In this document: in pieces, positions 9,699 through 51,386 of the stretch
How the letters are laid out: every line of letters starts with the position of its first letter
Numbering within the stretch: the first letter of the stretch is position 1
Assembly (NCBI RefSeq): GCF_037975245.1
Contig: NC_092569.1
Location: 29,474,168 to 29,538,167, forward strand
Length of the DNA stretch: 64,000 nucleotides
Direction: 5' to 3'
Source: Apostichopus japonicus
Taxonomy: Eukaryota; Echinodermata; Holothuroidea; Aspidochirotida; Stichopodidae
The notes under the pieces: model-generated
What the model was told of the DNA's origin: nothing
The model's input: the letters and a program-made list of their open reading frames with translations, nothing else
Database searches by the model: none
Made by a program: the position numbers and the translations under genes

Positions 9699-10018
9699 CT
9701 ACACCGGCCGTATTTTCATATCTGTGTATTGTAGGCCGCAGTCGTATCCACTAAGATAACTCCAGAATATGTTCGTTCCTCGAGTGGAGCCGTCGTAGTC
9801 TCCGTTGAGGTGAGAATGCGCACAATAGGCACAGTAATTAATTCCGATAGGGAAATAATTACAATCATATTCATGAGTACCGCAATAATAATAATAATGA
9901 CTGTCGAACCACCAGGCTCCTTGATGCTTCTCGGCGCAGTCATAGGAACTCGACTCATCGTTATCCCGGTCACGTGTGCTGAATTGTTTGTTGTTGCTAC
10001 GCGACATAGCATCAAAAC
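9699..10018 (-). CDS. gene 1 last exon: FReD P-subdomain
   Basis: Enters in phase 1 (G|GT, Gly) and ends at TAG 9699-9701 after MKIRPV, the usual FReD C-terminus. It has the calcium-site-type motif DRDNDESSS, then DCAEKHQGAWWF and CAHSHLNG, which correspond to the conserved disulphide and the WW..C...LNG signature. Between WWF and CAHSHLNG sit 27 residues where most FReDs have about 3-5. This insertion contains four tyrosines in a row and three extra cysteines (pattern C-x6-C-x9-C-x2-C counting the signature cysteine). A further cysteine lies near the end (GYDCGLQY). Confidence 0.93.
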
Positions 10019-13000
10019 CTACGGATTCGAGAAAGAAAACAAACTTCAAATGCTACGTGGACTCCATCGTACCGTTATTTATATTACTAATTGTTAATAT
10101 GAGTGCTTTTCTAGTGATCTGTTATTTCTTAATAGCAATACAAAATGTTGTCATTTCAGATGTATTAATTGAAAGGTGATACCAAAACAGTTTATTATAT
10201 ACGATTTTACAGAGAAAATATCACCCGAAAATTGCGTTGCCGAAGTGTCCGTAAGGTTTTCAATAACAGGTTTGTCTACGTGTATTTGGTAAATTCCTCA
10301 ATTTTGTCCCCTGTAAACATATGCTTATTATGAATATAACCGATAACAATCAGTAAGGTGCTATTAATATTATTGTATTTGACACTCATTAGCAATGCCT
10401 ATATTGTTCTAAACTTCCAAATCTTTATTCAAAATTGGAAACGGCATATTGGGAATGCGTCTGTTTTGCTTGTTGTTTTCATCTGTTCATTAATTTGATA
10501 GTACTTTCATCATTCAGGGCTTAGTGCCCGATGGATTAAAATTTCTTACAACTCTTAAAAGTTAAATATATTTTCATTACTAAACAACGGAAAAATGAAA
10601 AATGCTGCATTCTGGATCTTTAGTTAAAACAATTCATTCATACAAAATCGATGAATCTACGTAGAATATTTCAAAGCTACATTCCATCAATATTTATGCA
10701 GGCTATGAAACTTCTTTCTGTCTACGTAGCTGTTTTCATACTGATCACGTAACTATCACACAGTAGGCTAAGTTGTGGTTTATAACCTTCTTGTTACGCT
10801 ATTGGCTATTTATGTTCATTTTGTTTTGTTTATATTATGCTTACTCATGTGTGTTAAAATATCATACTTTTTCATGTGTATTTGATAATGGTGTCCTCAG
10901 TACATCCACCATATTGTGTCTATGTCCACACAAATCATGGAGTTCAAATTTCAGAGAGGCAATGACCTTCATTTGTTAGCACTGTCAGTCAGACTGATCA
11001 CAAATGACTGTCTAAAGATCACAATGAAAAACTTTAGAAATAAAATGCCCAGTATAGCGTTTTTACTAGTTTGTCATGATTAGTAGGTAACGCAGCTAGA
11101 CATAAGTTACGAGAGAAATGGTTATTGGATAGGATGTGCAAATATGTAGATTAGGATATAAAGTATATTTCAGGTTCAATATGAAGTTTCATGGTTTAGT
11201 GACCAGATGCTAAGGACACAAGTGTAATGCTTTTACACTCATGGATGTACTAAGCTACCTGCCTTTTATTTTTACTTATCATGTTTCGTGAGTTATTTGC
11301 ATTTATCATTAATTTACTACTAAATATTTACGGGGAAATTCCTTCCACTATTTGAAACAATCGTGTGTCAACAAACATCTGTTAGATCTGGAGTTAAAAA
11401 CATGCAGATATGCTCTTAATGTAAAACAATGATGAACGTTGAGAAAGCATTGTTAATTAATTAGAATGCATTTAACTAGTAAATCACAAATAATGATACT
11501 AATAAAATACAGAGATTCTAACCTGTATTTCCACTATATGATCCAATTGATAGTCGGTATTTGTCCGCATCGTCACTGATGCTAAAGGAGGAATAGAGGG
11601 CGTAATACGACGACCTACTTGAATCGGTGAGGTCTATCCGGAGACTGTATGTTTTTTGATTGGTTATTGCGTGTATGTAATCATTACCGAGCCAATGATC
11701 ACGATTAGGATTTTCAAATCCGTTTTTATACTCAGCCCAGGTACGATAGAAATCAACAGAGGCCCTTGATCGTCGCTGAATGACCTATGAATATAAATAT
11801 AAAATTACATGTTACAGGAGTAAGTGATAAGTGACAAATGTAATGTGTCTTCCACACTCTCAAAGAACAAATGAATTCAGAAACAAGACACTTCACTGGT
11901 TTAAATATTCGTGCAAAACTCACCGTCCATCCTCCTCCGTTACTTTCCATCTCACAGTAAACCTGAATGCCGCTTGGCGAACCATCAGGGTAAATGGTGT
12001 AAACTCCATCACTGAGTGTACCGAATTCATAAAGATCGTAGCAATCTTTTGGGATCAATCGAATGCACGTCACTCCGTCTCCTTCGTAGCCATCATTACA
12101 GTAACATTTACGGACACCGTTCCTCGTATCACAGGTTGCGTGTTCACTACACTGGTAACTCTCATCTATAAGTCGGTTGTTCCTACAAGTTGATTTTCGT
12201 GTACATCTTGAATTAGCGTAAAACTGGCCTTCCTAATTTAAGATATTCAGTGGGAAATAAAAATGAATAACGAATTTACTGTTGTCACTATGAAATGTAC
12301 GGGATTTCAACGTTGGGTGACCAAAGCAAAATTCCCCTAGGTATGGGTATGAACCTTGAGGAAATTTTAATGAGGTATTGATACCAACTGCGATGGAGGG
12401 GGCTAGTTATTCGCCATAAAAAAGGTAGCTGCCAAATGTTGCATTCAAAGGTTTATTGCGACTTTACATGAGCCCGATAATTGTTTCTAACTGCAAGACT
12501 GTGATAAGAAGTATCCATAAAACTATGTATCGTTGATAAGGGAATGTACACCCGTATGGGAGTGGTCTTATGCTTCCAAGCTAAGTGTAATACATCCATC
12601 GACTGACAGCAGGCTAGACTGGTGACTGATGTGAGGTCGATGGCCCCTGCCCAACCGCCATGCCAGCGCTATTCATTCATCTCTAAATGTAATACGATAA
12701 TTAACAAGTTTTTTTTTTAATAACAGGTTTCCGTCTAAGTATATGGACAATGAAGTATGAAGAAAGTATTTGAAATGACATTACAGAACCGTACTGACCC
12801 TTAATACACTTCCTTTGTCAGCAACGAAGCAGTTGTGGGTGCACGTCTCTCCGTCCCCTTGATAGTTTTGATTGCAGTAACATTTACGGACACCGCTCCT
12901 CGTATCACAGGTTGCGTGAATACTACACCGGTAACTCTCATCTGTAAGACGGTTGTTTCTACAAGTTGATTTTCGTGTACATCCTGAATTAGCGTGAAAC

Positions 13001-16000
13001 TGGCCCTCCTAATTTAAGATATTCAGTAAAAAACACTAATAAATTAGTGATGGATTTGCAGGTGTCAAAGTGGAATGTTAGGGATTTTCAACGTTGCATG
13101 ACCAATGCAAAATTCCCCTCCATTGATCTAAGTAAAGGAATAAAATTTTAAAAAAGTTTTACGAGGTCTTGATACCGACTCCAAAGTACGGGGATAGGGA
13201 TTTGCTTTTAATTTAAATAACCGTCAAATGTCGCATTCAACAACTTATTTAGATATTTTTGATACATTATTCCTGCAATGATTTCTTACTGCAAGACTGT
13301 AGTAAGAACAATCTATGACTTCTTGTAAAAGGTTTTTAAAGAGGTTGCACACCCGTATAGGCGTGGTCTTATACTTTCCGAGTAAATGTAATACATCCAT
13401 CGACTGACAGTTTTGTCTGGACTGGCGACCGAAGGGCGGTCCATGTCCCCTGCCCAACCGCGATACGAGCCCATTCGGTTATATCTGAATGTGATGCGAT
13501 AATCAACAAATTTAAATAATAAATGTTTCCTTTTTATTATCTGGACAATAAAGTATGAGAAAAGTATCTAAAAATGTCATTAAAGAATAGTACTGACCCT
13601 TAATACACTTCCTTTGTCAGCAACGAAGCAGTTGTGGGTGCACGTCACTCCGTCCCCATTGTAGTTTTGATCGCAGTAACATTTACGGACACCGTTCCTC
13701 GTATCACAGGTTGCGTGTGTACTACAGCGGTAACTCTCATCTGCTAAACGGTTGTTTCTACAAGTTGATTTCCGTGTACATCCTGAATTAGCGTAAAATT
13801 GGCCCTCCTAAGTTAGATATTGAATAAAAATACTAATAAATGAATTATATATTTGCAGTTGTCACAATGAAATGTGTAGGGTTTCAACAGTTGGGTGACC
13901 AATGCAAAATTCCCCTTGACTGGTAAAGGTATACAGCTTGATGAAAGCTGTATGAGGTATTGATACCAAATCCGAAGTATGGGGCCTAGCTCTTCCCAAT
14001 AAAGGTAGCTGCCAAATATAGCATTCAAGGGTGTATTGAGACTATACATGAGCCCGATAATTGTTTCTAACTGCAAGACTGTGATAAGTAGTATCCATAA
14101 AATTATTTATCGTTAAATAAGTGAATGTACACCCGTATTGGAGTGGTCTGATATGCTTCCCAGCTAAGTGCAATACATCCATCGACTGACAGTTTTGTCT
14201 AGATTGGCGACCGAAGTGAGGTCCATGGCACCTACCCTACCGCAATGCGAGCGCGATTATTTATCTCTAAATGTAATGCGATTAACAACATGTTTAAATA
14301 TTAAAATGATTCCTTGTAACTAAATGGACAATGAAGTATATGAGAAAAGTATTAAAAATGTCATTAAAGAACCTTACTGACCCTTAATACACTTCCTTTG
14401 TCAGCAACGAAGCAGTTGTGGGTGCACGTCACTCCGTCCCCATTGTAGTTTTGATCGCAGTAACATTTACGGACACCGTTCCTCGTATCACAGGTTGCGT
14501 GATCACTACACCGGTAACTCTCATCTGCTAGACGGTTGTTTCTACAAGTTGATTTTCGCGTACATCCTGAATTAGCGTGAAACTGGCCCTCCTTAGTTAG
14601 ATATTGAATGAAAATACTAATAAATGAGTTATGAATTTGCAGGTGTCACAATGAATTGTACAGGATTTCAAAGCTCGGGTGACCAATGCAAAAATTCCCC
14701 CTGACTGATATAGGTAAAAGTATGAACCTTGATGAAAGTTTTATGAGGGCTTGATACCAACACTAAAGTAGGGGGCCTAGTAATTCGCCATCAAAATGTG
14801 GCTGACAAATGATGCATTCAAGGATTTATTGCGGCTATACATGAACCCGATAATTATTTCTAACTGCAAGACTGTGATAAGAAATATCCATGAAAGTTTG
14901 TGTATCGTTGATAAGGGAATATACACCCTTATAGGAGTCGTATTATGCCTCCCAGCTAAGTGTAATATATCCATCGACTGACAGTTTTGTCTGGACTGGC
15001 GACCGAAGGGAGGTCCAATGCCCCTGCCCAACTGCGATGCAAGCGCTATTCATTTATCTCTAAATGCAATGCGAAAATCAACAAGTTTAAGTAGTTAAAG
15101 TTTCCTTCTTAGAATATGGACAATGAATTATGAAAAAAGTATTTGAAATGCCATGACAGAACCGTACTGACCCGTAATACACTTCCTTTGTCAGCAACGA
15201 AGCAGTTGTGGGTGCACGTCACTCCGTCCCCTTGATAGTTTTGATTGCAGTAACATTTACGGACACCGCTCCTCGTATCACAGGTTGCGTGAATACTACA
15301 CCGGTAACTCTCATCTGTAAGACGGTTGTTTCTACAAGTTGATTTTCGAGTACATCCTGAATTAGCGTGAAACTGGCCCTCCTAAGTTAGATATTCAATG
15401 AAAATACAAATAAATGAATTATGAATTTGCAGTTGTCACAATTTAATGCACAGGGTTTTGACGGTGCATGACCAATGCAAAATTCCCCTTGACTGATAAA
15501 GGTAAAGGTATGAACCATGATGAAAGTTTTATGATGTCTTGATACCAACTCTGACGTATGGGCCTATTTAATCGCCATAAAATAGGTAGCTGCCAAATGA
15601 TGCATTCAAGGGTTTATTGTGACTATACATGAGCCCGAAAAATATTTTTTACTGCAAGACTGTGATAAGAAATATCCATGAAAGTTTGTGTATCGCTGAT
15701 AAAGGAATATACACCCGTATAGGAGTCGTATTATGCCTCCCAGCTAAGTGTAATATATCCATCGACTGACAGTTTTGTCTAGACTGGCGACCGAAGTGAG
15801 GTCCATGGCCCCTGCCCAACCGCGAAACGAGCGCTATTCATTTAAATATATATGTAATGCAATAGTCAACCATTTTTAACAGTAAAAGGTTTCCTTCTAA
15901 GAATATGGACAATGAATTTTCAGAAAAGTATTCAAAATGCCTTTACAGAACCGTACTGACCCTTAATACACTTCTCTTGTCAGCAACGAAGCAGTTGTGG

Positions 16001-19000
16001 GTGCACGTCACTCCGTCCCCATGGTAGTTTTGATTGCAGTAACATTTACGGTCATCGTTTCTCGTATCACAGGTTGCGTAAATACTACACTGGTAACTCT
16101 CATCTACAAGCCGGTTGTTCCTGCAAGTTGATTTTCGTGTACATCTTGAATTAGCGTAAAACTGGCCTTCCTAATTTATGATATTCAGCGGGAGAAAAAA
16201 ATTATGAATTTGCAGTTGTCACAATGAATTGTACAGGATGTCAACGCTCGGGTGACCAATGCAAAAATTCCCCTTGACTGATATAGGTAAAGGTATGAAC
16301 CTTGATGAAAGTTTTATGAGGGCGTGATACCAACACTAAAGTAGGGGACCTAGTAATTCGCCATCAAAAGGTGGCTGACAAATGATGCATTCAAGGATTT
16401 ATTGCGACTATACATGAACCCGATAATTATTTCTAACTGCAAGACAGCGGTAAGAAGTATCCATGAAATGTTATGTATCGTTGATAGGAAAAGTACACCC
16501 GTATAGGAGTGGTATTATGCTTCCCAGCCAAGTGTAATACATCCATCGACTGACAGTTTTGTCTGGACTGGCGACCGAAGTGAGGTCCATGGCCCCTGCC
16601 CAGCCGCGATGCCAGCGCTATTTATTTATCTTTAAATGTAATGCGATAATCAACAAGTTTAAATAATAAAAGGTTCCTTCTAAGTATATGGACAATGAAT
16701 TATGAAAAAAAAAGTATTTGAAATGCCATGACAGAACCGTACTGACCCGTAATACACTTCCTTTGTCAGCAACGAAGCAGTTGTGGGTGCACGTCACTCC
16801 GTCCCCATGATAGTTTTGATTGCAGTAACATTTACGGACACCGGTCCTCGTATCACAGGTTGCGTGAATACTACACCGGTAACTCTCATCTGTAAGACGG
16901 TTGTTTCTACAAGTTGATTTTCGAGTACATCCTGAATTAGCGTGAAACTGGCCCTCCTAAGTTAGATATTCAGTGAAAATACTAATAAATGAATTATGAA
17001 TTTGCAGTTGTCACAATTTAATGTACAGGGTTTCAACGTTGGGTCACCAATGCAAAATTCCCCTCGACTGATATAGGTAAAAGTATAAACCATGATGAAA
17101 GTTTTATGATGTCTTGATACCTTTTCCGAAGTAAGGTGCTTATTTATTCGCCATAAGATAGGTAGATGCCAAATGATGCATTCAAGGGTTTATTGTGACT
17201 ATACATGAGCCCGAAAAATATTTTTTACTGCAAGACTGTGATAAGAAATATCCATGAAAGTTTGTGTATCGTTGATAAAGGTATATACACCCGTATAGGA
17301 GTCGTAAAATGCCTCCCAGCTAAGTGTAATACATACATCGACTGACAGTTTTGTCTAGCCTGGCGACCAGGTAAGGTCCATGTCCTCTGCCCAACCGCGA
17401 TACGAGCGCTATTCATTTAAATATATATGTAATGCAACAATCAACAAGTTTTAACAGTTAAAGGTTTTCTTCTAAGTATATGGACAATGAAGTTTCAGAA
17501 CAGTATTCAGAATGCCATTACAGAACCGTACTGACCCTTAATACACTTCTTTTGTCAGCAACGAAGCAGTTGTGGGTGCACGTCACTCCGTCCCCATGGT
17601 AGTTTTGATTGCAGTAACATTTACGGTCATCGTTTCTTGTATCACAGGTTGCGTAACTACTACACTGGTAACTCTCATCTACAAGCCGGTTGTTCCTACA
17701 AGTTGATTTTCGTGTACATCTTGAATTAGCGTAAAACTGGCCTTCCTAATTTAAGATATTCAGCGGGGGAAAAAAATATGAATTTGCAGTTGTCGCAATG
17801 AATTGTCCAGAATTTCAACGCTTGGGTGACCAATGAAAAATTCCCCTTGACTGATATAGGTAAAGGTATGAACCTTCATGAAAGTTTTATTAGGGCTTGA
17901 TACCAACACTAAGGTAGGGGGCCTAGTAATTCGACATCAAAAGGTGGCTGATAAATGATGCATTCAAGGATTTATTGCGACTATACGTGAACCCGATAAT
18001 TATTTCTAACTGCAAGACTGTGGTAAGAAGTATCCATGAAATGTTATGTATCGTTGATATGGTAAGTGCACCCGTATAGGAGTGGTCTTATGTTTTCCCA
18101 GCTAAGTGTAATACATCCATCGACTGACAGTTTTGTCTGAACTGGCGACCGTAGTGAGGTCGATGGCCCCTGCGCTACCGCGAAGCCAGCGCTATTCATT
18201 TATCTTTAAATGTAATGCGATAATCAGCAAGTTCAAATAGTAAAAGGTTTCCTTTTTAAGTATATGGACAAAAAAGTAGAGGAAAGTATTTAAAATGCCA
18301 TAACAGAACCGTACTGACCCTCAATACACTTCCTTTTTCAGCAAAGAAGCAGCTGTGGGTGCACGTCACTCCGTCCCCATTGTAGTTTTGATCGCAGTAA
18401 CATTTACGGACACCGTTCCTCGTATCACAGGTTGCGTGTTCACTACACCGGTAACTCTCATCTATAAGCCGGTTGTTTCTACAGGTTGACTTTCGTGTAC
18501 ATCCTGAATTAGCATGAAACTGGCCCTCCTAAGTTAAGATATTCAGTGGAAACACTTATAAATTAGTGATGGATTTGCAGGAGTCAAAGTGGAATGTAAG
18601 GGATTTTCAACGGTGCTTGACCAATGCAAAATTCCCCTCCATTGATCTAAGTAAAGGTATTAAACTTTATAAAAGTCTAAGAGGTCTTGATACCGACTCC
18701 AAAGTAGGGGGATAGAGATTCGCCATTAATTTGAATAACCGTCAAATGTAACATTCAACAACTTATTTAGATATTTTTGATGCATTATTCCTGCAATGAT
18801 TTCTTACTGCAAGACTGTAGTAAGAACTATCTATGACTTTTTGTGAAAGGTTTATAAAGAGGTTGCACACCCGTATAGGCGTGGTCTTATGCTTTCCTAC
18901 AAAATGTAGTACATCCCTCGACTCACAGTTTTGTCTGGACTGGCGACCAAAGTGAGGTCGATGGCCCCTGCGCTACCGCGAAGCCAGCGCTATTCATTTA

Positions 19001-22000
19001 TCTTTAAATGTAATGCGATAATCAGCAAGTTCCAATAGTAAAATGATTCCCTGTAATTATATGGAAAATGAAGTATGCGAAAAGTATTAAAAATGCCATA
19101 ACAGAACCGTACTGACCCTTAATACACTTCCTTTGTTAGCAACGAAGCAGTTGTGGGTGCACGTCACTCCGTCCCCATTGTAGTTTTGATCGCAGTAACA
19201 TTTACGGACACCGTTCCTCGTATCACAGGTTGCGTGTGTACTACACCGGTAACTCTCATCTACTAGACGGTTGTTTCTACAAGTTGATTTTCGTGTACAT
19301 CCTGAGTTAGCGTGAAACTGGCCCTCCTAAGTTAGATATTGAATAAAAATACTAATAAATGAATTATGAATTTGCAGTTGTCACAATGAAATGTATAGGG
19401 TTTCAACTGTTGGGTGACCAATGCAAAATTCCCCTTGACTGGTAAAGGTATAAACCTTTACGAAAGCTTTATGAGGTCTTGATATCAACTCCGAAGTATG
19501 GGGCCTAGCTCTTCCCAACAAAGGTAGCTGCCAAATATTGCATTCAAGGGTTTATTGCGACTATACATGTGCCCGATAATTGTTTCTAACTGCAAGACTG
19601 TGGAAAGAAATATCCATAAAATTATGTATCGTTGATAAGGAAATGTACACCCGTATAGGAGTGGTCTTATGCTTCCCAGCTAAGTGCAATACATCCATCG
19701 ACTGACAGTTTTGGTAAGACTGGCGACCGAAGGGAGGTCAATGGCGCCTGCCCAACCGCGATGCCAGTGCTCTTAATTGAAAAATATATAACTAATGCAA
19801 TAATCGACAAGTTTTAACAGTAAATGGTTTCTTTTTAAGTATATGGACAAGGAAGTTTCAGAAAAGTATTCAAAATGCCATTACAGAACCGTACTGACCG
19901 ATAATACACTTCCTTTGTCAGCAACGAAGCAGCTGTGGGTGCACGTCGCTCCGTCCCCATTGTAGTTTTGATCGCAGTAACATTTACGGACACCGTTCCT
20001 CGTATCACAGGTTGCGTGTGTACTACACCGGTAACTCTCATCTACTAGACGGTTGTTTCTACAAGTTGATTTCCGTGTACATCCTGAGTAAGCGTGAAAC
20101 TGGCCCTCCTAAGTTAGATATTGAATAAAAATACTAATAAATGAATTATGAATTTGCAGTTGTCACAATGAAATGTATAGGGTTTCAACTGTTGGGTGAC
20201 CAATGCAAAATTCCCCTTGACTGGTAAAGGTATAAACCTTTACGAAAGCTTTATGAGGTCTTGATATCAACTCCGAAGTAGGGGGCCTAGCTCTTCCCAA
20301 CAAAGGTAGCTGCCAAATATTGCATTCAAGGGTTTATTGCGACTATACATGTGCCCGATAATTGTTTCTAACTGCAAGACTGTGGTAAGAAATATCCATA
20401 AAATTATGTATCGTTGATAAGGGAATGTACACCCGTATTGGAGTGGTCTTATGCTTCCCAGCTAAGTGCAATACATCCATCGACTGACAGTTTTGGTAAG
20501 ACTGGCGACCGAAGGGAGGTCCATGGCCCCTGCCCAACCGCGATGCCAGTGCTCTTAATTGAAAAATATATAACTAATGCAATAATCGACAAGTTTTAAC
20601 AGTAAATGGTTTCTTTTTAAGTATATGGACAAGGAAGTTTCAGAAAAGTATTCAAAATGCCAGAACAGAACCGTACTGACCGATAATACACTTCCTTTGT
20701 CAGCAACGAAGCAGCGGTGGGTGCACGTCGCTCCGTCCCCATTGTAGTTTTGATCGCAGTAACATTTACGGACACCGTTCCTCGTATCACAGGTTGCGTG
20801 TGTACTACACCGGTAACTCTCATCTACTAGACGGTTGTTTCTACAAGTTGATTTCCGTGTACATCCTGAGTTAGCGTGAAACTGGCCCTCCTAAGTTAGA
20901 TATTGAATAAAAATACTAATAAATGAATTATGAATTTGCAGTTGTCACAATGAAATGTATAGGGTTTCAACTATTGGGTGACCAATGCAAAATTCCCCTT
21001 GACTGGTAAAGGTATAAACCTTTACGAAAGCTTTATGAGGTCTTGATATCAACTCCGAAGTAGGGGCCTAGCTCTTCCCAATAAAGGTAGCTGCCAGATA
21101 TTGCATTCAAGGGTTTATTGCGACTATACATGTGCCCGATAATTGTTTCTAACTGCAAGACTGTGGTAAGAAATATCCATAAAATTATGTATCGTTGATA
21201 AGGGAATGTACACCCGTATAGGAGTGGTCTTATGCTTCCCAGCTAAGTGCAATACATCCATCGACTGACAGTTTTGGTAAGACTGGCGACCGTAGGGAGG
21301 TCCATGGCCCCTGCCCAACCGCGATGCCAGTGCTCTTAATTGAAAAATATATAACTAATGCAATAATCGACAAGTTTTAACAGTAAATGGTTTCTTTTTA
21401 AGTATATGGACAAGGAAGTTTCAGAAAAGTATTCAAAATGCCATTACAGAACCGTGCTGACCGATAATACACTTCCTTTGTCAGCAACAAAGCATCTGTG
21501 GGTGCACGTCGCTCCGTTCCCATTGTAGTTTTGATCGCAGTAACATTTACGGACACCGTTCCTCGTATCACAGGTTGCGTGTGTACTACACCGGTAACTC
21601 TCATCTACTAGACGGTTGTTTCTACATGTTGATTTCCGTGTACATCCTGAGTTAGCGTGAAACTGGCCCTCCTAAGTTAGATATTGAATAAAAATACTAA
21701 TAAATGAATTATGAATTTGCTGTTGTCACAATGAAATGTATAGGGTTCAACTGTTGGATGACCAATGCAAAATTCCCCTTGACTGGTAAAGGTATAAACC
21801 TTAATGAAAGCTTTATGAGGTCTTGATATCAACTCCGAAGTATGGAGTCTTGCTCTTCCCAATAAAGGTAGCTGCCAAATATTGCATTCAAGGATTTATT
21901 GCGACTATACATGTGCCCGATAATTGTTTCTAACTGCAAGACTGTGGTAAGAAATATCCATAAAATTATGTATCGTTGATAAGGGAATGTACACCCGTAT

Positions 22001-25000
22001 TGGAGTGGTCTTATACTTCCCAGCTAAGTGCAATACATCCATCGACTGACAGTTTTGGTAAGACTGGCGACCGAAGAGAGGTCCATGGCCCCTGCCCAAC
22101 CGCGATGCCAGTGCTCTTAATTGAAAAATATATAACTAGTGCAATAATCGACAAGTTTTAACAGTGAAAGGTTTCTTTTTAAGTATATGGACAAGGAAGT
22201 TTCAGAAAAGTATTCAAAATGTCATTACAGAACCGTACTGACCGATAATACACTTCCTTTATCAGCAACGAAGCAGCTGTGGGTGCACGTCGCTCCGTCC
22301 CCATTGTAGTTTTGATCGCAGTAACATTTACGGACACCGTTCCTCGTATCACAGGTTGCGTGTTCACTACACTGGTAACTCCTATCTATTAGACGGTTGT
22401 TCCTACAAGTTGATTTCCGTGTACATCTTGCATTAGCGTAAAACTCGCCATTCTATAAATATATTCAGAAAAAAATACTAATCAATGAATTATGAATTTG
22501 CTGTTGGTACAGTGAATTGTACAGAATTTCGACGGTGTGCTGCCAATTCAAAATTTCTCTTGACTGTAATTAGTTATGGGTATGAACATTAATGACAGTT
22601 TCATGAGGTCTTGATACCAACTTTGAAGTACGGAGCATATGGACGCAATACAATGGTAGATGCCAAGGGTTGCATTATACGGTTCATTGCGAGTATACAT
22701 GAGCCTGATAATTAGTTCTAAATGCAGGCCTGTGGTAAGAAGTATGTATGAAATGTTGTGTAATATTCACAAGAGAATATACACCCGTACATGAGTGGTA
22801 TTATGGTTCCCAGCTAAATGCAATACATCCATCGACTGACAGTTTTGTCTTGAGTGGCGATAGAAGGGCGGTCCATGGCCCCTGCCCAACCGCGATACGA
22901 GCGTTATTCGGTTTTATCTGAATGTAATGCGATAATCAACAAGTTTATATAGTTAAATTTTTCCTTTTTATTTCATGGACCATAAAGTATGAGAAAAGTA
23001 TCTAAAAATGCCTTTACAGAACAGTACTGACCTTTAATACACTTCCTTTGTCAGCGACGAAACAGTTGTGAGTGCACGTCACTCCGTCCCCATGGTATTT
23101 TGGATTGCAGTAACATTTACGGACACCGGTCCTCGTATCACAGGTTGCGTGATCACTACATTGGTAATGTTCATCTATAAGCCGGTTATTCCTACAAGTT
23201 GATTTTAGTGTACATCCTGAATTAGCGTAAAATTCGCCCTCCTAAGTTAGATATTGAATGAAAATACTAATAAATGAATTATAAATTTGCTGTCTTAAAA
23301 GTGAATTGTACAAGATTTCAACGATAGGTGGCCAATTCAAAATTTCCTCGACTTAATATTGGCATGGGTATGAAAATTTATGACAGTTTCATGAGGTATT
23401 GATACCGACTTTGAAGTACGGAGCATATGGACGCAATACAAAGGTTGCTGCCAAATGTTGCATTAAACGGTTTATTGCAAGTATACATGGGCCTGATAAT
23501 TAGTTCTAAATGCAGGACTGTGGTAAGAAGTATCTATGAATTGTTGTGTAATATTCACAAGGGAATGCACACCCGTAAAGGAGTGGTATTATGGTTCCCA
23601 GCTAAATGCAATACATCCATCGACTGACAGTTTTGTCTTGAGTGGCGATAGAAGGGCGGTCCATGTCCCCTGCCCAACCGCGAAACGAGCGCTATTTGGT
23701 TATATCTGAATGTAATGCGATAATCAACAAGTTTATATGGTTAAATTTTCCTTTTTATTTCATGGACCATAAAGTATGAGAAAAGTATCTAAAAATGCCA
23801 TTACAGAACAGTACTGACCCTTAATACACTTCCTTTGTCAGCAACGAAACAGTTGTGGGTGCAAATCACTCCGTCCCCGTGGTAGTTTTGATTGCAGTAA
23901 CATTTACGGACACCGATCCTCGTATCACAGGTTGCGTGATCACTACATTGGTAACTCTCATCTATAAGCCGGTTGTTCCTACAAGTTGATTTTAGTGTAC
24001 ATCCTGAATTAGCGTAAAACTCGCCCTCCTAAGTTAGATATTGAATTAAAATACTAATAAATGAATTATAAATTTGCGGTTTTAAAAGTGAATTGTACAA
24101 GATTTCAACGATGGGTGGCCAATTCAAAGTTTCCTCGACTTAAAATTGGTATGGGTATGAAAATTTATGACAGTTTCATGAGGTATTGATACCGACTTTG
24201 AAGTACGGAGCATATGGACGCAATACAAAGGTAGCTGCCAAATGTTGCATTAAACGGTTTATTGCAAGTATACATGAGCCTGATAATTATTTCTTAATGC
24301 AGGCCTGTGGTAAGAAGTATCTATGAAATGTTGTGTAATATTCACAAGGGAATGTACACCCGTAAAGGAGTGGTATTATGGTTCCCAGCTAAATGCAATA
24401 CATCCATCGACTGACAGTTTTGTCTTGAGTGGCGATAGAAGGGCGGTCCATGTCCCCTGCCCAACCGCGATACGAGCGCTATTTGGTTATATCTGAATGT
24501 AATGCGATAATCAACAAGTTTTTATGGTTAAATTTTTCCTTTTTATTTCATGGACCATAAAGTATGAGAAAAGTATCTAAAATGCCATTACAGATCAGTA
24601 CTGACCCTTAATACACTTCCTTTGTCAGCAACGAAACAGTTGTGGGTGCACGTCACTCCGTCCCCGTGGTAGTTTTGATTGCAGTAACATTTACGGACAC
24701 CGGTCCTCGTATCACAGGTTGCGTGATCACTACATTGGTAACTCTCATCTATAAGCCGGTTGTTCCTACAAGTTGATTTTAGTGTACATCCTGAATTAGC
24801 GTAAAACTCGCCCTCCTAAGTTAGATATTGAATTAAAATACTAATAAATGAATTATAAATTTGCGGTTTTAAAAGTGAATTGTACAAGATTTCAACGTTG
24901 GGTTGCCAATTCAAAATTTCTTATGACTTAATATTGGTATGGGTATGAAATTTTATGACAGTTTCATGAGGTATTGATACCGACTTTGAAGTACGAAGCC

Positions 25001-28000
25001 CAGGGACGCAATACAAAGGTAGCTGCCAAATGTTGCATTAAACGGTTTATTGCAAGTATACATGAGCCTGATAATTATTTCTAAATGCAGTTGTGGGTGC
25101 ACGTCACTCCGTCCCCATGGTAGTTTGGATTGCAGTAACATTAACGGGCACCGATCCTCGTATCACAGGTTGCGTGATCACTACATTGGTATTTCTCATC
25201 TATAAGCCGGTTGCTCCTACAAGTTGATTTTAGTGTACATCCTGAATCGACGTAAAACTCGCCATACTATTTTAAGACATTCAGTGACAATACCAATAAA
25301 TGATTTATGAATTTGCGGTTGTTGCAAAAAAATGTATGGGATTTCAACGGTGGATGACCAATGCAAAATCCCCACCCCCCGACTTAATTTAGGTATGGTT
25401 ATGCACATTTTTGACAGTTTCATGAGGTATTGCTACCAACTTCGAAGTAGGAGCCTGAGGATTCTAAATAAAACGGCAGGTGCCAAATGTTGCATTAAAC
25501 GGTTTATTGCGGCTTTACATGTGCCCGATGATTAGTTTAAAATGCAGGACTGTGATAAGAAGTACCTCTAACATTTTGTGAAATTTTTCAAAGGGATTGT
25601 CCACCCGTATAGGAGTGGTCTTATGCTTGCCAGCTAAGTGTAATACATCTCTCGACCGACAGTTTTGCCTTGACTGGCGACCGAAAGGCGGTCCATGTCT
25701 CGTGCCCATATGCGATGCGTGCGCTATTCTCTTAATATAATGCAATAATCAACAAGTCTAAATAGCAAAGGTTTCCTTCTTATTATATGGACAATTAAGT
25801 ATGAGAAAACCATATAAAACATGAAATAACAGAACAGTATTGACCTTTAATACACTTCCTTTGTCAGCAACGAAACAGTTGTGGGTGCACGTCACTCCGT
25901 CCCCTTCGTAGTTTGGATCGCAGTAACATTTACGAACACCGCTCTTCGTATCACAGGTTGCGTGTTCACTACACTGGTAACTCCTATCTATAAGACGGTT
26001 GTTCCTACAAGTTGATTTTCTTGTACATCTTGAATTAGCGTAAAACTCGCCATTCTATAAAGATATTCAGAAAAAAATACTAATAAATGAATTATGAATT
26101 TGCTGTTGGTACAGTGAATTGTACAGGATTTCGACGGTGTGTTGCCAATTCGAAATTCCCCTTGACTTTATTGAGTTATAGGTATGAACATTTATGACAG
26201 TTTCATGAGGTCTTGATACCAGCTCCGAAGTAGGGGGCTTAGCTATTTGCAACAAAAATGTAGCTGCCTAATGTTGCATTAAGCGGTTTATTGCGACTAT
26301 ACGTGAGCCAGATAATAAGTTATATATGCAGGACTGTGGTAAGAAGCATACATGAAATTTTGTGTAATGTTATTATGGAATGTACACCCGTATGAGAGTG
26401 GTCTGAGGCTTCTCAGCTAAGTGCAATTCATCCATCGACTGACAATTTTGTCTGGACTGGCGAGCGAAAAGCGGTCCATGTGTGAGCGCTTCTAGGTTAT
26501 ATCTTAATGCAATGCGATAATCAACAATTTTAAATAGTAAAAGGTTACCTTCTTATTATACGCCAATGAAGTATGTTAATGTATCTAGAAATACCATTAA
26601 AGAACAGTACTGACCCTTAATACACTTCCTTTATCAGCGATGAAGCAGTTGTGGGTACACTTCACTCCGTCCCCATGGTAGTTTGGATTGCAGTAACATT
26701 TACGGACACCGGTCCTCGTATCACAGGTTGCGTGTTCACTACACTGGTAACTCTCATCTATAAGTCGGTTGTTCATACAAGTTGATTTTTGTGTACATTC
26801 TGAATTAGCGTAAAACTGGTCCTCCTAATTTAAAATATTAAGTGAAAATACTAATAAATGAATTATGAATTTGCTGTTGTAACAGTGAATTGAACAGGAT
26901 TTCAACGGTGGATGACCAATGCATAATTCCCCTAGATTTAATATAGGTATGGGTATGAACATTTATGACAATATTATGAGGTCTTGATACCAACTTCGAA
27001 GTAGGAAACCTAGGGATTTGCAATAAAAAGGTAGCCCCCAAATGTTGCATTAAACGGTTCATTGCGACTATACATGAGCCCGATATTTAGTTCTAAGTTC
27101 AGGACTGTGGTAAGAAGTATCTATGGAATTTAACGTTATGTCTATAAGGTAATGCACAACCGTATACCATTGGTCTTATGCTTCCCAGCTTAGTGTAATA
27201 TATCCCTCGACTGACAGTTTTGTCTTGACTGGCGACCAAGGGGCGGTCCATGTTCCCTGATCAACCGCGATACGAGCGCTATTCGGTTATATCTAAATGT
27301 AGTGCGATAATCAACAAGTTTAAATAGTAAAATATTACCTTCTCATTATAAGCAAATGAAGTATGATAAAAGTATCTAAAAATGTCATTAAAAAACCGTA
27401 CTGACCATTAATACACTTCCTTTGTCAGCGATGAAACAGTTGTGGGTGCACGTCACTCCGTCCCCTTCGTAGTTTGGATTGCAGTAACATTTACGAACAC
27501 CGTTCCTCGTATCACAGGTTGCGTGATCACTACACTGGTAACTCTCATCTATAAGCCGGTTGTCCCTACAAGTTGATTTTTGTGTACATTCTGAGTTAGC
27601 GTAAAACTGGTCCTCCTAATTTAAAATATTAAGTGAAAATACTAATAAATGAATTATGAATTTGCTGTTGTAACAGTGAATTGAACAGGATTTCAACGGT
27701 GGATGACCAATGCATAATTCCCCTAGATTTAATATAGGTATGGGTATGAACATTTATGACAATATTATGAGGTCTTGATACCAACTTCGAAGTAGGAAAC
27801 CTAGGGATTTGCAATAAAAAGGTAGCCCCCAAATGTTGCATTAAACGGTTCATTGCGACTATACATGAGCCCGATATTTAGTTCTAAGTTCAGGACTGTG
27901 GTAAGAAGTATCTATGGAATTTAACGTTATGTCTATAAGGTAATGCACAACCGTATACCATTGGTCTTATGCTTCCCAGCTTAGTGTAATATATCCCTCG

Positions 28001-31000
28001 ACTGACAGTTTTGTCTTGACTGGCGACCAAGGGGCGGTCCATGTTCCCTGATCAACCGCGATACGAGCGCTATTCGGTTATATCTAAATGTAGTGCGATA
28101 ATCAACAAGTTTAAATAGTAAAATATTACCTTCTCATTATAAGCAAATGAAGTATGATAAAAGTATCTAAAAATGTCATTACAAAACCGTACTGACCATT
28201 AATACACTTCCTTTGTCAGCGATGAAACAGTTGTGGGTGCACGTCACTCCGTCCCCTTCGTAGTTTGGATTGCAGTAACATTTACGGACACCGTTCCTCG
28301 TATCACAGGTTGCGTGATCACTACACTGGTAACTCTCATCTATAAGCCGGTTGTCCCTACAAGTTGATTTTTGTGTACATTCTGAATTAGCGTAAAACTG
28401 GTCCTCCTAATTTAAAATATTAAGTGAAAATACTAATAAATGAATTATGAATTTGCTGTTGTAACAGTGAATTGAACAGGATTTCAACGGTGGATGACCA
28501 ATGCATAATTCCCCTAGATTTAATATAGGTATGGGTATGAACATTTATGACAATATTATGAGGTCTTGATACCAACTTCGAAGTAGGAAACCTAGGGATT
28601 TGCAATAAAAAGGTAGCCCCCAAATGTTGCATTAAACGGTTCATTGCGACTATACATGAGCCCGATATTTAGTTCTAAGTTCAGGACTGTGGTAAGAAGT
28701 ATCTATGGAATTTAACGTTATGTCTATAAGGTAATGCACAACCGTATACCATTGGTCTTATGCTTCCCAGCTTAGTGTAATATATCCCTCGACTGACAGT
28801 TTTGTCTTGACTGGCGACCAAGGGGCGGTCCATGTTCCCTGATCAACCGCGATACGAGCGCTATTCGGTTATATCTAAATGTAGTGCGATAATCAACAAG
28901 TTTAAATAGTAAAATATTACCTTCTCATTATAATCAAATGAAGTATGATAAAAGTATCTAAAAATGTCATTACAAAACCGTACTGACCATTAATACACTT
29001 CCTTTGTCAGCGATGAAACAGTTGTGGGTGCACGTCACTCCGTCCCCTTCGTAGTTTGGACTGCAGTAACATTTACGGACACCGGTCCTCGTATCACAGG
29101 TTGCGTGTTCACTACACTGGTAACTCTCATCTATAAGTCGGTTGTTCCTACAAGTTGATTTTAGTGTACATCCTGAATTAGCGTAAAACTCGCCCTCCTA
29201 AGTTAGATATTGAATTAAAATACTAATAAATGAATTATAAATTTGCGGTTTTAAAAGTGAATTGTACAAGATTTCAACGTTGGGTTGCCAATTCAAAATT
29301 TCCTCGACTTAATATTGGTATGGGTATGAAAATTTATGACAATTTCATGAGGTATTGATACCGACTTTGAAGTAGGAAGCCCAGGGACGCAATACAAAGG
29401 TAGCTGCCAAATGTTGCATTAAACGGTTTATTGCAAGTATACATGAGCCTGATAATTATTTCTAAATGCAGTTGTGGGTGCACGTCACTCCGTCCCCATG
29501 GTAGTTTGGATTGCAGTAACATTAACGGACACCGGTCCTCGTATCACAGGTTGCGTGATCACTACATTGGTATTTCTCATCTATAAGCCGGTTGCTCCTA
29601 CAAGTTGATTTTAGTGTACATCCTGGATCGACGTAAAACTCGCCATAGTATGTTAAGACATTCAGTGACAATACTAATAAATGATTTATGAATTTGCGGT
29701 TGGTGCAATGAAATGTATGGGATTTCAACGGTGGATGACCAATGCAAAATTCCCCCCGACTTAATATAGGTATGGTTATGCACATTTTTGACAGTTTCAT
29801 GAGGTATTGCTACCAACTTCGAAGTAAGGAGCCTGAGGATTCTAAATTAAACGGCAGGTGCCAAATGTTGCATTAAACGGTTTATTGCGGCTTTACATGT
29901 GCCCGATGATTAGTTTAAAATGCAAGACTGTGATAAGAAGTACCTCTAACATTTTGTGAAATGTTTCAAAGGGATTGTCCACCCGTATAGGAGTGGTCTT
30001 ATGCTTGCCAGCTAAGTGTAATACATCTCTCGACCGACAGTTTTGCCTTGACTGGCGACCGAAAGGCGGTCCATGTCTCGTGCCCATATGCGATGCGTGC
30101 GCTATTCTCTTAATATAATGCAATAATCAACAAGTCTAAATAGCAAAGGTTTCCTTCTTATTATATGGACAATTAAGTATGAGAAAACCATATAAAACAT
30201 GAAATAACAGAACAGTATTGACCTTTAATACACTTTCTTTGTCAACAACGAAACAGTTGTGGGTGCACGTCACTCCGTCCCCTTCGTAGTTTGGATCGCA
30301 GTAACATTTACGAACACCGCTCCTCGTATCACAGGTTGCGTGTTCACTACACTGGTAACTCCTATCTATAAGACGGTTGTTCCTACAAGTTGATTTTCTT
30401 GTACATCTTGAATTAGCGTAAAACTCGCCATTCTATAAAGATATTCAGAAAAAAATACTAATAAATGAATTATGAATTTGCTGTTGGTACAGTGAATTGT
30501 ACAGGATTTCGACGGTGTGTTGCCAATTCGAAATTCCCCTTGACTTTATTGAGTTATAGGTATGAACATTTATGACAGTTTCATGAGGTCTTGATACCAA
30601 CTCCGAAGTAGGGGGCCTAGCTATTTGCAACAAAAATGTAGCTGCCTAATGTTGCATTAAGCAGTTTATTGCGACTATACGTGAGCCAGATAATAAGTTA
30701 TATATGCAGGACTGTGGTAAGAAGGATACATGAAATTTTGTGTAATGTTTATTATGGAATGTACACCCGTATGAGAGTGGTCTTAGGCTTCTCAGCTAAG
30801 TGCAATTCATCCATCGACTGACAATTTTGTCTGGACTGGCGTGCGAAAAACGGTCCATGTGCGAGCGCTTCTAGGTTATATCTTAATGTATTGCGATAAT
30901 CAACAATTTTAAATAGTATAAGGTTACCTTCTTATTATACGCCAATGAAGTATGTTAATGTATCTAGAAATACCATTAAAGAACAGTACTGACCCTTAAT

Positions 31001-34000
31001 ACACTTCCTTTATCAGCGATGAAGCAGTTGTGGGTACACGTCACTCCATCCCCATGGTAGTTCGGATTGCAGTAACATTTACGGACACCGGTCCTCGTAT
31101 CACAGGTTGCGTGTTCACTACACTGGTAACTCTCATCTATAAGCCGGTTGTCCCTACAAGTTGATTTTTGTGTACATTCTGAATTAGCGTAAAACTGGTC
31201 CTCCTAATTCAAAATATTAAGTGAAAATACTAATAAATGAATTATGAATTTGCTGTTGTAACAGTGACTTGAACAGGATTTCAACGGTGGATGACCAATG
31301 CATAATTCCCCTAGATTTAATATAGGTATGGGTATGAACATTTATGACAATATTATGAGGTCTTGATACCAACTTCGAAGTAGGAAGCCTAGGGATTCGC
31401 AATAAAAAGGTAGCCCCCAAATGTTGCATTAAACGGTTCATTGCGACTATACATGAGTCCGATATTTAGTTCTAAGTTCAGGACTGTGGTAAGAAGTATC
31501 TATGGAATTTAACGTTATATCTATAAGGTAATGCACAACCGTATACCATTGGTCTTATGCTTCCCAGCTTAGTGTAATATATCCCTCGACTGACAGTTTT
31601 GTCTTGACTGGCGACCAAGGGGCGGTCCATGTTCCCTGATCAACCGCGATACGAGCGCTATTCGGTTATATCTAAATGTAGTGCGATAATCAACAAGTTT
31701 AAATAGTAAAATATTACCTTCTCATTATAAGCAAATGAAGTATGATAAAAGTATCTAAAAATGTCATTACAAAACCGTACTGACCATTAATACACTTCCT
31801 TTGTCAGCGATGAAACAGTTGTGGGTGCACGTCACTCCGTCCCCTTCGTAGTTTGGATTGCAGTAACATTTACGGACACCGGTCCTCGTATCACAGGTTG
31901 CGTGATCACTACATTGGTAACTCTCATCTATAAGCCGGTTGTTCCTACAAGTTGATTTTAGTGTACATCCTGAATTAGCGTAAAAGTCGCCCTCCTAAGT
32001 TAGATATTGAATTAAAATACTAATAAATGAATTATAAATTTGCGGTTTTAAAAGTGAATTGTACGGGATTTCAACGGTGCATGACTAATGCAAAATTTCC
32101 CTCCATTGATCTAACTAAAGGTATTAAACTTTAAAAAGGTTTTACGAGGTATTCATACCGACTCCAAAGTAGGGGGGTAGGGAATCGCCATAAATTTGAA
32201 AACCGTCCTCGTATCACAGGTTGCGTGATCATTACACTGGTAAGTCTCATCTATAAGTCGGTTGTTTTAGTGTACATCCTAAATTAGCGTAAAACTGACC
32301 CTCCTAATTAAAGATATTAACGGGATTTCAACGGTGGGTTGACAATATTCTGCCCAACCGCGATGCGCATACGTAAATGAAATGCAATTATATTGAAAAT
32401 TATGAAAAGCAAATCATTTAACTTGAAGTGACCGTACTGACCGTTAATACACTTCCTTTGTCAGCAACGAAACAGTTGCATTGGTTCCGAGGGATGCATT
32501 CTTCTTGCTGTCTCAGATAATCACCGACACAAACACATTGCTCTGTTTCTATGCGAGAGGTAGCCAAGATGCAAGTATCGGGATCTTCACAAGTCCTCTC
32601 ACATGTCTCATTGCTAAATATCTCATTGGTTGGACACCATTCAGGATTTAATGCTAGAGAACAGGAAAGAAAGAAAGACAATGTAAGTAAAAGTAACCTG
32701 ATACAGACACGAAGAATATGACATCTGACAAAGAATAGTTTCTGTCATTCCTTCAATACGGGGCTATCAGATCGTTACAGAAAAGAAAAAAAAAACCTTC
32801 TGAAGCAGTTCGAATTAATCTAGAATATTTTAAATCAGGTAGTGGTCGTTCGGTAGTCACATTAATGATGATATTTATTCAACATTACGAGATTTCAGCC
32901 CATTATTTGTTGCACAACTGGTGTGATACCAGAAAGTAATTGCTTATTTCTGTTTACAGTTTCCCTCGGTTTTAGTAAACTGCTTTCTGACAACAATGAT
33001 AATTAATAACAACATCGAATTTCTTTTGCGTTGGTTGTTCTGATCAAACTGGGAGACGTACCTGTTTTAAGTGTAAACGATCTGGTAGGTACAAACGTTA
33101 GATACGGATTCTCGTTCAGAGCCAAGATAAGTGTTAAGTACGAAGATGTCTTACAGTGAGTGCGTAATCACACTTGAGCTAATGGATGCATTTTGGAATC
33201 TAATCAAATGCAAGATTAAGTATTTTAACTCGCGCTAAGAGCTGGTACTTAAACTCGTATTCATATCATGTTGTATTCGCTACTGTATATTGTAGCTCCG
33301 TTGTCTCGCTGGTATACCATATGTATACTAGTTGTATATGTATTGTAGCAGTTTTTAAACTAAGAAAACATACGTGAGATATTTGAAACATTTAGTTCCA
33401 AAAGATCCATTCGTTCTCAGAATAAACCTTTCACTTTAAACACGTTTACATTTGACATTTAATAAACGATCACCATTTTTTTTTTATATTTCGGCTTTAA
33501 ATTTAAAAAGAATGTGTAAGACACTTACCATCTGATTTTATGAATGTACCTAAACTAGAGATATAATATTTCCCCCATTCATCTGAGATACGGAACTCGT
33601 CGTATGTTACATAGTAAGTTTCTCCAGCAACGTTCTCAAAGTCCATTCGCAGTAGGTACCGCTTTTGATTTGTTAAGACGGCAATTTTCTCATTTCCGAT
33701 CCAAAACTCACTTCCTAGAAAGCCAAAGCCGTTTCTGAAGTCTTTCCAACTTCTATTAAAATTGACAGAATCCGATCTTCGTCGCTGTAATACCTACAAC
33801 GAATATCAAAGAAGTCAAGCTTTAACTAGGACGTTATTAAATATTTATTATTCGTTCCCTTCTGCAATGCGATTGTTTGGGTAACAGTTATAACAGAGAA
33901 ATAAGAAATTTTATATCTAACTTTAATCGTAGAGTGCAGGCTAGAGGCCTACAGTTTTCTTAGAAAATGGACAACAATGTATTTAATTTCAAAATATATA

Positions 34001-48404: not shown

Positions 48405-48745
48405 TTATGTCTGCACTGGTCGTATTTTCATCTCTGTATATTGTAGGCCGCAGTCGTATCCACTAAGACTACTCCAGAATATGTTCGTTCCTGGAGTGGA
48501 TCCGTCGTAGCGTCCGTTGAGGTGAGAATTAGCACAACTAGCACACCTGTCGCTTCTGAAAGGGAAATTATCGCAATAATCTTCCCTAGTGCGACAATAA
48601 GGAAAACTAGACCTAAAGTAAGAACTCTAACCAAACCACCAGGCTCCTTGATGCTTCTCAGCGCAATCAAAAAAACTCCAATCATCATTGTCCTCGTCAC
48701 GTGTGCTGAATTTATTGTGGTTGCTAACCGGCATAGTATCAAAAC
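48405..48745 (-). pseudogene. gene 2 last exon: FReD P-subdomain with in-frame TAG
   Basis: Phase 1 in, end at TAA 48405-48407 after MKIRPVQT. TRDEDNDDWSFFDC and EKHQGAWWFG precede TAG 48627-48629. Beyond it the frame goes on through an insertion with the same cysteine spacing as gene 1 (C-x6-C-x9-C-x2-C) and CANSHLNG, then GYDCGLQYTEMKIRPV. The stop would remove the last 74 residues. Confidence 0.85.
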
Positions 48746-50274: not shown

Positions 50275-50536
50275 CTGCATTTCCACTATATGAGCTAATT
50301 GATAGTCGATATTTGTCCGCCTCGTCCCTTATGCTAAAGTAGGTATAGAGGGCGTAATACGACGACCCTCTTGAATCGGTCAGGTCTATCCGGAGACTAC
50401 ATGTTTTTTGGTTGGTAATTGCGTGTATGTAATCATTACCGAGCCAATGATCACCGATAGGATTTTCAAATCCGTTTTTATACTCAGCCCAGGTACGATA
50501 GAAATCAACAGTGGCGCTTGATCGTCGCTGAATGAC
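50275..50536 (-). CDS. gene 2 exon: FReD middle part
   Basis: 262 bp as in gene 1. VIQRRSSATVDFYRTW, HWLGNDYIHAITNQKTC and SLRIDLTDSRGSSYY. A Tyr-to-Cys change (KTCSLRI) gives an extra unpaired cysteine compared with gene 1. Confidence 0.93.
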
Positions 50537-50648: not shown

Positions 50649-50957
50649 CGTCCATCCTCCTCCGTTACTTTCCATCTCACAGAAAACCTGAATCCCGCGT
50701 GGCCAACCATCAGGGTAAATGGTGTAAACTCCATCACTGAGTGTACCGGAAACATAAAGATCGTAGCAATCTTTTGGGATCAATGTGCACGTCACTCCGT
50801 CTCCTTCGTAGCCATCATTACAGTAACATTTACGGACACCTTCTCTGACATCACAAGTCGCGTCATCACTACAGTGGTAACTCTCTTCTTCTATGAGTTG
50901 GTTATTGCTACAGTGTGATCTTCTTGTACAGCCTGAATTGACGAAAGACTCGCCGTT
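50649..50957 (-). CDS. gene 2 fused exon: last EGF module plus FReD start
   Basis: 309 bp. NGESFVNSGCTRRSHC, EESYHCSDDATC, NDGYEGDGVTC, then LIPKDCYDLYVSGTLSDGVY and the GGGWT end. It is the most diverged module of the two genes in its first half, with several changes (RRSHC, IEEES) not seen elsewhere. Confidence 0.92.
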
Positions 50958-51230
50958 CTAAATTTAATTGGAAATATTTAAAAATAACGACTTGAAAAAG
51001 TAATTAAGTTATTCTGAATTCACCATTGGGACTCACCATACTATCAGACAAATTTACCATTCTTAATCAGAAAAAATATGATTAAAGTATGAATAAAGAG
51101 GAGGCCTAATTATTCGCCATGAAAAGGTAGCTGTGAAATATTGCATTTAAGGATTTATTGCGACTATACATGAGCCCGATAACTGTTTCTAACTGAAAGA
51201 CTGTGATAAGTAGTATCCATGAAAACTGGC

Positions 51231-51386
51231 GTCCCCATGGTAGTTTGGATTGCAGTAACATTTACGGACACCGGTCCTTGTATCACAGATTGCGTGATCA
51301 CTACACTGGTAGCTCCCATCTATAAGACGGTTGTTCCTACAAGTTGATTTTCGTGTACATCCCGAATAAGCGTGAAACTGGCCGTC
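51231..51386 (-). pseudogene. gene 2 truncated EGF module exon
   Basis: The acceptor-side about 156 bp of a module exon. Homology ends at 'gtccccatgg', so the last about 54 bp and the donor are missing. Equivalent in nature to the broken exons of gene 1 but with a different breakpoint. Confidence 0.75.

Follow-up and report, generated by a model that had tools for sequence, protein, structure and literature searches.

A tandem array of 24 TILa-EGF module exons in a putative FReD lectin gene of the sea cucumber Apostichopus japonicus

How does one gene come to hold 24 closely related exons together with their introns, and what protein would it encode? The question is raised by a 64,000-nt stretch of Apostichopus japonicus DNA (the window), which is located on contig C9 of the genome we searched (671,581,487 bases, 35 contigs). 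On its minus strand the window contains a gene, named gene A here, in which an array of 24 intact TILa-EGF module exons of 210 bp with homologous introns extends over 12799..31994. As modelled, gene A consists, in this order, of half a FReD (exons 1-2), a probable TIL domain, 25 TILa-EGF modules, and a complete FReD. The array is real; its mechanism, unequal exchange, is ordinary, and its architecture is unusual. Gene A appears to be coding and to belong to a very large family of echinoderm FReD lectins, and its array would have grown as homologous introns repeatedly underwent unequal exchange. Each module exon measures 210 bp and is symmetric, with phase 0 on either side, so that any gain or loss of units should keep the reading frame and stalk length would evolve freely. 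Judging from the sequence, we consider it probable that the family consists of secreted recognition lectins carried on stalks of evolvable length.

Structure and growth of the module array

The gene A array was scanned by blastn using the first unit as query, which gave 24 full or near-full copies within 12799-31994, plus fragments; splice borders, Pfam matches and intron comparison were used as well. All 24 exons are exactly 210 bp long, have AG/GT borders and phase 0 on both sides, and form one open frame on the minus strand. The start-to-start spacing of the units is 770-799 bp, with two exceptions of 1,239 and 1,235 bp. Each of these ~1.24-kb gaps contains one broken module, which carries a stop and lacks GT where the donor should be. 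Broken copy 1 (29468..29644, minus strand) has stop codons and AC at the acceptor, and broken copy 2 (25087..25263, minus strand) lies within the second long intron. The two long introns are only 1.9% apart, which indicates that the broken copy was itself duplicated inside a block. A degenerate module fragment (32202..32303, minus strand; 77.8% by blastn), with stops in its translation, is found between the TIL exon and the first intact module.

The introns are homologous throughout the array. The 21 introns of ordinary length (of 23) show a mean difference of 19.5% over 210 pairs, whereas eight introns that were shuffled and aligned identically differ by 62.6%, so the homology is not due to chance. 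The module exons differ by 9.7% on average over 276 pairs. The ratio of nonsynonymous to synonymous divergence (dN/dS) over these pairs is 0.48, and dS is 0.18, near the intron divergence of 0.195.

To compare whole units, each exon was taken together with 540 bp of preceding sequence. Units A02/A07, A03/A08 and A04/A09 pair at an offset of five units and are 1.6%, 1.9% and 3.2% apart; A18/A20 and A19/A21 pair at an offset of two (6-7% apart), and A17/A24 at an offset of seven (10.7%). Units A13-A16 are a run of single-unit copies that are 0.9-3.9% apart, and A01, next after the TIL exon, is an outlier with its nearest unit at 33%. Such mixed block sizes are as unequal exchange produces. The initial annotation of this DNA had described 24 stop-free, phase-0 exons of 210 bp, the regular spacing with two long gaps caused by broken exons, intron homology in the whole array, and growth by unequal exchange of entire exon-intron units. 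The exons are all where it placed them, and the measured spacing, the intron divergence and the block-wise copying bear out the rest of this description.

We surveyed 14 arrays, 12 of which were fetched and two of which are in the window. The second array in the window belongs to gene B (~48.4-57.5 kb), which contains five modules and a damaged FReD. The numbers of intact internal modules per array are 24, 24, 18, 12, 12, 10, 9, 8, 8, 8, 7, 6, 5 and 4 (n=14); in the array of 18, one additional module is split between two fetched pieces. We considered gene A as an array of record length and rejected this, as 24 internal modules occur in a second gene too. That second 24-module array (L029/L030, C9 34.564-34.581 Mb) is in much of its length a repeat with a three-module period (549, 543 and 791 bp). 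The nearest neighbour lies within the same gene for 122 of the 155 modules, compared with a mean of 13.8 and a maximum of 32 in 500 shuffles. The exceptions are gene B (0/5) and the 4-module gene (0/4). These observations suggest that expansion and homogenisation of the arrays take place mostly within single genes.

Only the best candidates were scored in the genome searches (150 of 1,062 module matches and 150 of 484 TIL exon matches), and the counts from them are lower bounds. A last-module exon is located downstream of TIL in 122 of the 150 scored cases. The distance is below 1 kb in 54, which is too close for an ordinary ~790-bp unit to lie between, 1-2.6 kb in 37, 2.6-6 kb in 13, 6-21 kb in 15, and above 21 kb in three. 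One-module genes are thus common, and the long arrays are probably derived. The three distances above 21 kb are probably mis-assigned, as are probably those of 16.7 and 17.9 kb at two TIL exons that have no scored second exon of the half FReD.

Domain content of the module exon

In Pfam searches, a single module exon matches EGF_3 (2e-9) and TILa (4.1e-4). The EGF_3 match of one exon is over the Pfam cut-off (38 versus 28.5 bits). TILa falls below its cut-off of 27 bits in single exons (20.8 and 23.1 bits) and in the TIL exon joined to module 1 (20 bits). When modules 1-3 of gene A are joined, TILa rises to 42.2 bits (9.1e-11), over the cut-off, and an artificial triple of a consensus-like module gives 3.9e-14. 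The best TILa stretch in the joined modules covers residues 135-183 and spans the exon junction after residue 140, indicating that the intron cuts TILa. These matches argue that the module exon is a permuted TILa-EGF unit, not a single EGF domain. The initial annotation had named the exons EGF modules; the EGF domain is indeed present, but each exon holds EGF_3 plus most of a TILa that is cut by the intron.

Eight cysteines are invariant across the 29 modules of the window. The best 150 TILa matches in the genome are spread over several contigs, and almost all of them begin at profile positions 5-14 of 55; the cut within TILa may therefore be old. An AlphaFold2 prediction of one module exon with a 29-row alignment has a mean pLDDT of 38.8, and this low value may arise because the lone exon is a permuted fragment of TILa-EGF. 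Clusters of TILa exons were also observed outside C9, at C15 15.83-15.94 Mb, C1 4.4-4.7 Mb and C10 5.9-7.0 Mb, and some of these exons outscore those of the FReD family.

Gene A and its N-terminal half FReD

The 30-exon model of gene A, whose splicing is predicted, is open for 2,193 residues including 219 cysteines, and its only stop is the terminal one. All exons are on the minus strand. The half FReD is encoded by N-FReD1 (34156..34328; Fibrinogen_C 7e-8 for its main part; presumably phase 1 in, phase 0 out) and N-FReD2 (33529..33793; Fibrinogen_C 4.2e-22; phase 0 in, phase 1 out), which together cover positions 2-129 of 221 in the Pfam Fibrinogen_C profile. The TIL exon follows (32442..32653; Pfam TIL 7.5e-4; phase 1 in, phase 0 out). 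It ends in the first TILa residues, with the terminal motif CFVADKGSVL that is common to most modules; within a longer joined query, TIL is not reported at E 0.01. Phase 0 is kept throughout the modules. The 25th module is fused to the first exon of the C-terminal FReD (11924..12232; EGF_3 1.7e-9, Fibrinogen_C 3.2e-9, TILa 7.9e-5), which is followed by C-FReD2 (11523..11784; Fibrinogen_C 7.6e-27; phase 0 in, phase 1 out) and, entered in phase 1, by FReD3 with the stop codon (9699..10018; Fibrinogen_C 4.3e-11). A FReD lectin with a 25-module stalk had been proposed before. The array had been placed at the right coordinates, and a FReD does follow it with the 25th module fused to it, but the half FReD and the TIL exon had been missed. 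The gene had to be corrected to the minus strand and extended, via the TIL exon and the two FReD exons, to at least 34328 on the 5′ side of the array.

To assess whether the half FReD is part of the gene, we took 20 additional genes and compared their TIL to N-FReD1 regions with those of genes A and B (n=22). N-FReD1, N-FReD2 and TIL are all present in 22/22 regions. Phase 1 of the N-FReD2 donor is kept in 21/22 genes, the exception being L009 with its frameshift. The TIL exon has its acceptor AG in 21/22 (all but L018) and its donor GT in 22/22. A tblastn search with the gene A exon (E up to 1) detected a FReD exon 3 between N-FReD2 and TIL in none of the 22 regions. The dN/dS ratios are 0.31 for N-FReD1 (153 pairs), 0.27 for N-FReD2 (136 pairs) and 0.36 for TIL (153 pairs), with four divergent genes left out and L009 also left out for N-FReD2. 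In addition, 132 of the 150 scored TIL exons have an N-FReD2 exon no more than 3 kb upstream, on their own strand, compared with a mean of 5.9 when the N-FReD2 positions were shifted 200 times. The kept phase, the absent FReD exon 3, the constraint and this proximity indicate that the half FReD belongs to the TIL-TILa-EGF-FReD gene. We considered a separate upstream gene as the source of the half FReD and rejected it on the first three of these grounds.

In gene A, N-FReD2 is identical to C-FReD2 at 36 of 86 positions (42%), which means that the half FReD did not arise by recent copying of the C-terminal FReD. The most likely origin of the half FReD is a recombination in FReD intron 2 that would have linked a plain FReD gene of three exons with a TIL-TILa-EGF-FReD gene next to it.

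FReD tip and variable loop

The joined C-terminal FReD matches Fibrinogen_C with 3.6e-58 (best stretch 1-191 of 221) and ficolin-1 with 8.3e-51 in phmmer, where the match is found on both sides of a loop. The alignment with ficolin-1 is good up to GAWW and resumes, weakly, after the loop. The DxDND stretch, which we take to be the calcium site, is kept as DRDND (FSTRDRDND, versus FSTKDQDND in ficolin). The loop, the most striking feature of the family, is in gene A a 33-residue Tyr/Cys-rich segment between GAWW and LNG (9810..9908, minus strand), while 8 residues separate WW from LNG in ficolin-1. It presumably borders the acetyl-binding pocket known from tachylectin-5, FIBCD1 and ficolins.

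We sampled this loop in 81 genes (gene A and 80 fetched FReD3 exons, L036-L115), of which 73 fitted the search pattern. Loop length in these 73 genes ranges from 30 to 49 residues, and 68 different loops occur among them. Their composition is 26% Tyr, 14% Cys and 12% Ser; four or six cysteines are present in 66/73. Most columns flanking the loop are nearly fixed in the first 56 genes. The dN/dS of the loop is 0.54 over 152 pairs of equal length, although equal length does not guarantee a correct alignment, compared with 0.22 for the 5′ flank and 0.37 for the 3′ flank (99 pairs). The 56 loops contain 478 TAT codons, and their runs suggest that loop length changes in part through triplet slippage.

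Distribution of the family

The best 150 module matches and the best 150 TIL matches are all on contig C9, as are 146 of the best 150 N-FReD2 matches, the other four being on C20. Between 29.3 and 35.8 Mb of C9 lie 122 of the 150 scored TIL exons. The family is much larger and more interesting than the initial annotation suggested. We note that sets of the same exons recur with near-constant offsets of ~678 kb (C9 34.65-34.72 Mb and 35.33-35.40 Mb) and ~807 kb (C9 30.47-30.49 and 31.28-31.30 Mb). These sets are either segmental duplications of large size or duplicates falsely introduced by the assembly.

Discussion

We favour the view that the product of gene A is secreted, with its cysteine-rich modules forming a stalk and its FReD tip binding a ligand via the variable Tyr/Cys-rich segment. 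Gene duplication would multiply tips with different loops, and the family may serve, probably in immunity, as a set of recognition lectins encoded in the germline. Immune recognition seems the most likely role because of the family size and the variable tip, and a matrix or adhesive role is the main rival. More tentatively, the genes might form a germline repertoire, comparable to antibody tips set on stalks, with a constant FReD frame, a Tyr-rich and disulfide-rich loop, an independently renewed stalk, and both long and short forms. It is similarly tentative that loop length in such a repertoire would be partly renewed by triplet slippage, with loops that differ between nearly all genes except recent copies.

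The alternative of a matrix role, which we regard as unlikely, would also have a coding array. The protein would be structural or adhesive (a tenascin-like rod, mucus or glue), and its loop variation would be drift via triplet slippage. Series of TIL, TILa and EGF domains occur in adhesive and matrix proteins, and the TAT runs and the loop dN/dS below 1 are compatible with this view. An adhesive protein of Macrostomum with TIL and EGF series is described in the accessible text of PMC6410801. However, the loop of the FReD family is located at the expected ligand pocket, its four or six cysteines are kept in most genes and most columns of its flanks are nearly fixed, and a large family with divergent tips would be more typical of recognition than of structure. 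It is quite improbable that the array is mostly a non-functional repeat of which few modules are used. The two broken modules, the fragment before the array and the stop in FReD3 of gene B would fit such decay, but all 24 remaining exons are intact, with dN about half of dS. The 14 arrays moreover hold 155 intact internal modules, and no damaged one was found in the 12 fetched arrays besides the terminal modules and one split module, while four are present in the window arrays of genes A and B. Multiplication of units or blocks by misassembly appears very unlikely. A difference of only 0.4-2% separates some of the units from each other, and likewise the two long introns, and the ~678-kb and ~807-kb sets, the former with four of the five identical loop pairs, could be false duplications. 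On the other hand, the distance from a unit to its closest counterpart ranges from 0.4% to 33% across the 24 units and often amounts to several percent, more than HiFi read error would account for. The A. japonicus HiFi assembly, as given in the accessible text of PMC10344927, has a contig N50 of 17.2 Mb (671,643,915 bases, 34 scaffolds, 23 chromosomes).

Another proposal is compatible with recognition by stalked lectins, namely that one gene could yield both a long and a short product. The block running from TIL through C-FReD2 is flanked by phase 1 on either side, and skipping this cassette joins N-FReD1-2 to FReD3 in frame, which would give a short, stalkless lectin of 252 residues with the same loop. 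The skipped form gives a single continuous Fibrinogen_C match (positions 2-220), and the FReD3 acceptors allow phase 1 in all 56 exons with a recognised motif (61 examined). A short product would also explain why the half FReD stays constrained. Nevertheless, the phase compatibility may simply have been left behind by the fusion from which the gene arose, and Pfam gives the joined C-terminal FReD a higher score (197.4 bits) than it gives the skipped form (165.1 bits); we consider a short form possible, though doubtful.

Several points weigh against the favoured account of gene A and its family. Near-identical units could have been miscounted by the assembly, as the closest pair is 0.4% apart. 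An upstream scan for phase-1 candidates of a signal-peptide exon gave only weak ones, none of them convincing. The TIL exon reaches 20 bits against a Pfam cut-off of 24.5, with the full profile 1-55 covered. Among the 150 scored TIL exons, 18 have no scored N-FReD2 nearby, and 28 have no scored last-module exon. In-frame stops were counted in 1/150 module, 1/150 TIL, 2/150 N-FReD2, 4/150 last-module and 11/150 FReD3 matches, a count that excludes matches cut short by a frameshift; the FReD3 stops and the stop in gene B suggest that part of the family is decaying. The loop dN/dS is below 1, so diversifying selection is at most suggested. Finally, five loop pairs are identical, four from the ~678-kb sets and one near 19.1-19.2 Mb; these are recent copies.

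Comparison with known proteins shows where the architecture departs from them. No Pfam match to the Ig, FN3, collagen, VWD or C8 families was found among the scanned gene A exons. Tenascins have an EGF series and a C-terminal FReD. Gene A differs from them in that FN3 repeats do not occur between EGF and FReD, the last module and the FReD share one exon, the module is TILa-EGF, and a half FReD and TIL precede the array. Ficolins, FIBCD1 and tachylectin-5 have the FReD globe with DxDND and are among the best solved-structure matches. In place of the collagen-like stalk that ficolins have before the FReD, gene A has a TILa-EGF module that shares its exon with the FReD start. The FREPs of the snail Biomphalaria are an expanded FReD family linked to immunity; no Ig match was found among the scanned exons of gene A, and the diversity of its family is in the FReD loop and stalk length. 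In VWF, zonadhesin and FCGBP, TIL is followed by TILa, but the VWD and C8 domains of these proteins have no match in the scanned exons of gene A, whose EGF is fused to TILa and iterated.

The initial annotation did not recognise this architecture. We likewise found no half FReD-TIL-TILa-EGF-FReD protein in the open-access literature, the part of the literature covered, and nothing relevant on TILa together with fibrinogen. Gene A is one of a large family in which a second gene also has 24 internal modules. FREP expansion and clustering in A. japonicus are already published: in the accessible text of PMC5638244, FREPs are the most expanded family and are mainly clustered on one linkage group, and a tandem cluster of 21 FREP genes is up-regulated in visceral regeneration. 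That expansion resembles ours in being a very large FReD family of tandem genes on one linkage group. The accessible text describes no TIL, TILa or EGF modules, half FReD or variable loop, and 'EGF' occurs 0 times in the main text. The up-regulation in regeneration fits either an immune or a matrix role. If recognition is indeed the function, an invertebrate without antibodies would keep a chromosome-scale lectin set in which the variable loop is separate from a freely evolving stalk, and symmetric exons would let the reach of the protein change by whole modules. This would offer a testable case of germline repertoire diversity and a reason for the FREP expansion in this animal.

Gene B and other loci

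Gene B is on the minus strand as well. Its N-terminal FReD exon 1 (about 57344-57516) was located by homology to gene A, and the exact ends of exon 2 (56717..56981) follow from comparison with gene A. The TIL exon (55629..55840), placed by homology and splice sites, is followed by the five intact module exons (52070..55433; blastn and borders) and by a truncated module (51230..51386; blastn and translation). The last module, which is one codon longer than usual, is fused to FReD exon 1 (50649..50957), and FReD exons 2 (50275..50536) and 3 (48414..48743) complete the gene. Gene B is probably decaying, because its last FReD exon contains an in-frame stop and one of its modules is truncated.

Dense series of FReD exons, seen as Fibrinogen_C matches, were also observed at C9 15.3-16.7 Mb, C7 1.2-1.3 Mb and C8 7.66-7.77 Mb. 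The mitochondrial-like contig C35 encodes a cox1 whose translation makes sense only if AAA is read as asparagine (code 9), and the gene after it was recognised as nad4L; this indicates an echinoderm. A search for the GFP family gave no match, which is uninformative for the taxonomy. Besides C35, cox1-like pieces are present on C29 at 14.7-31.2 kb, and these are perhaps further mitochondrial or nuclear mitochondrial DNA.

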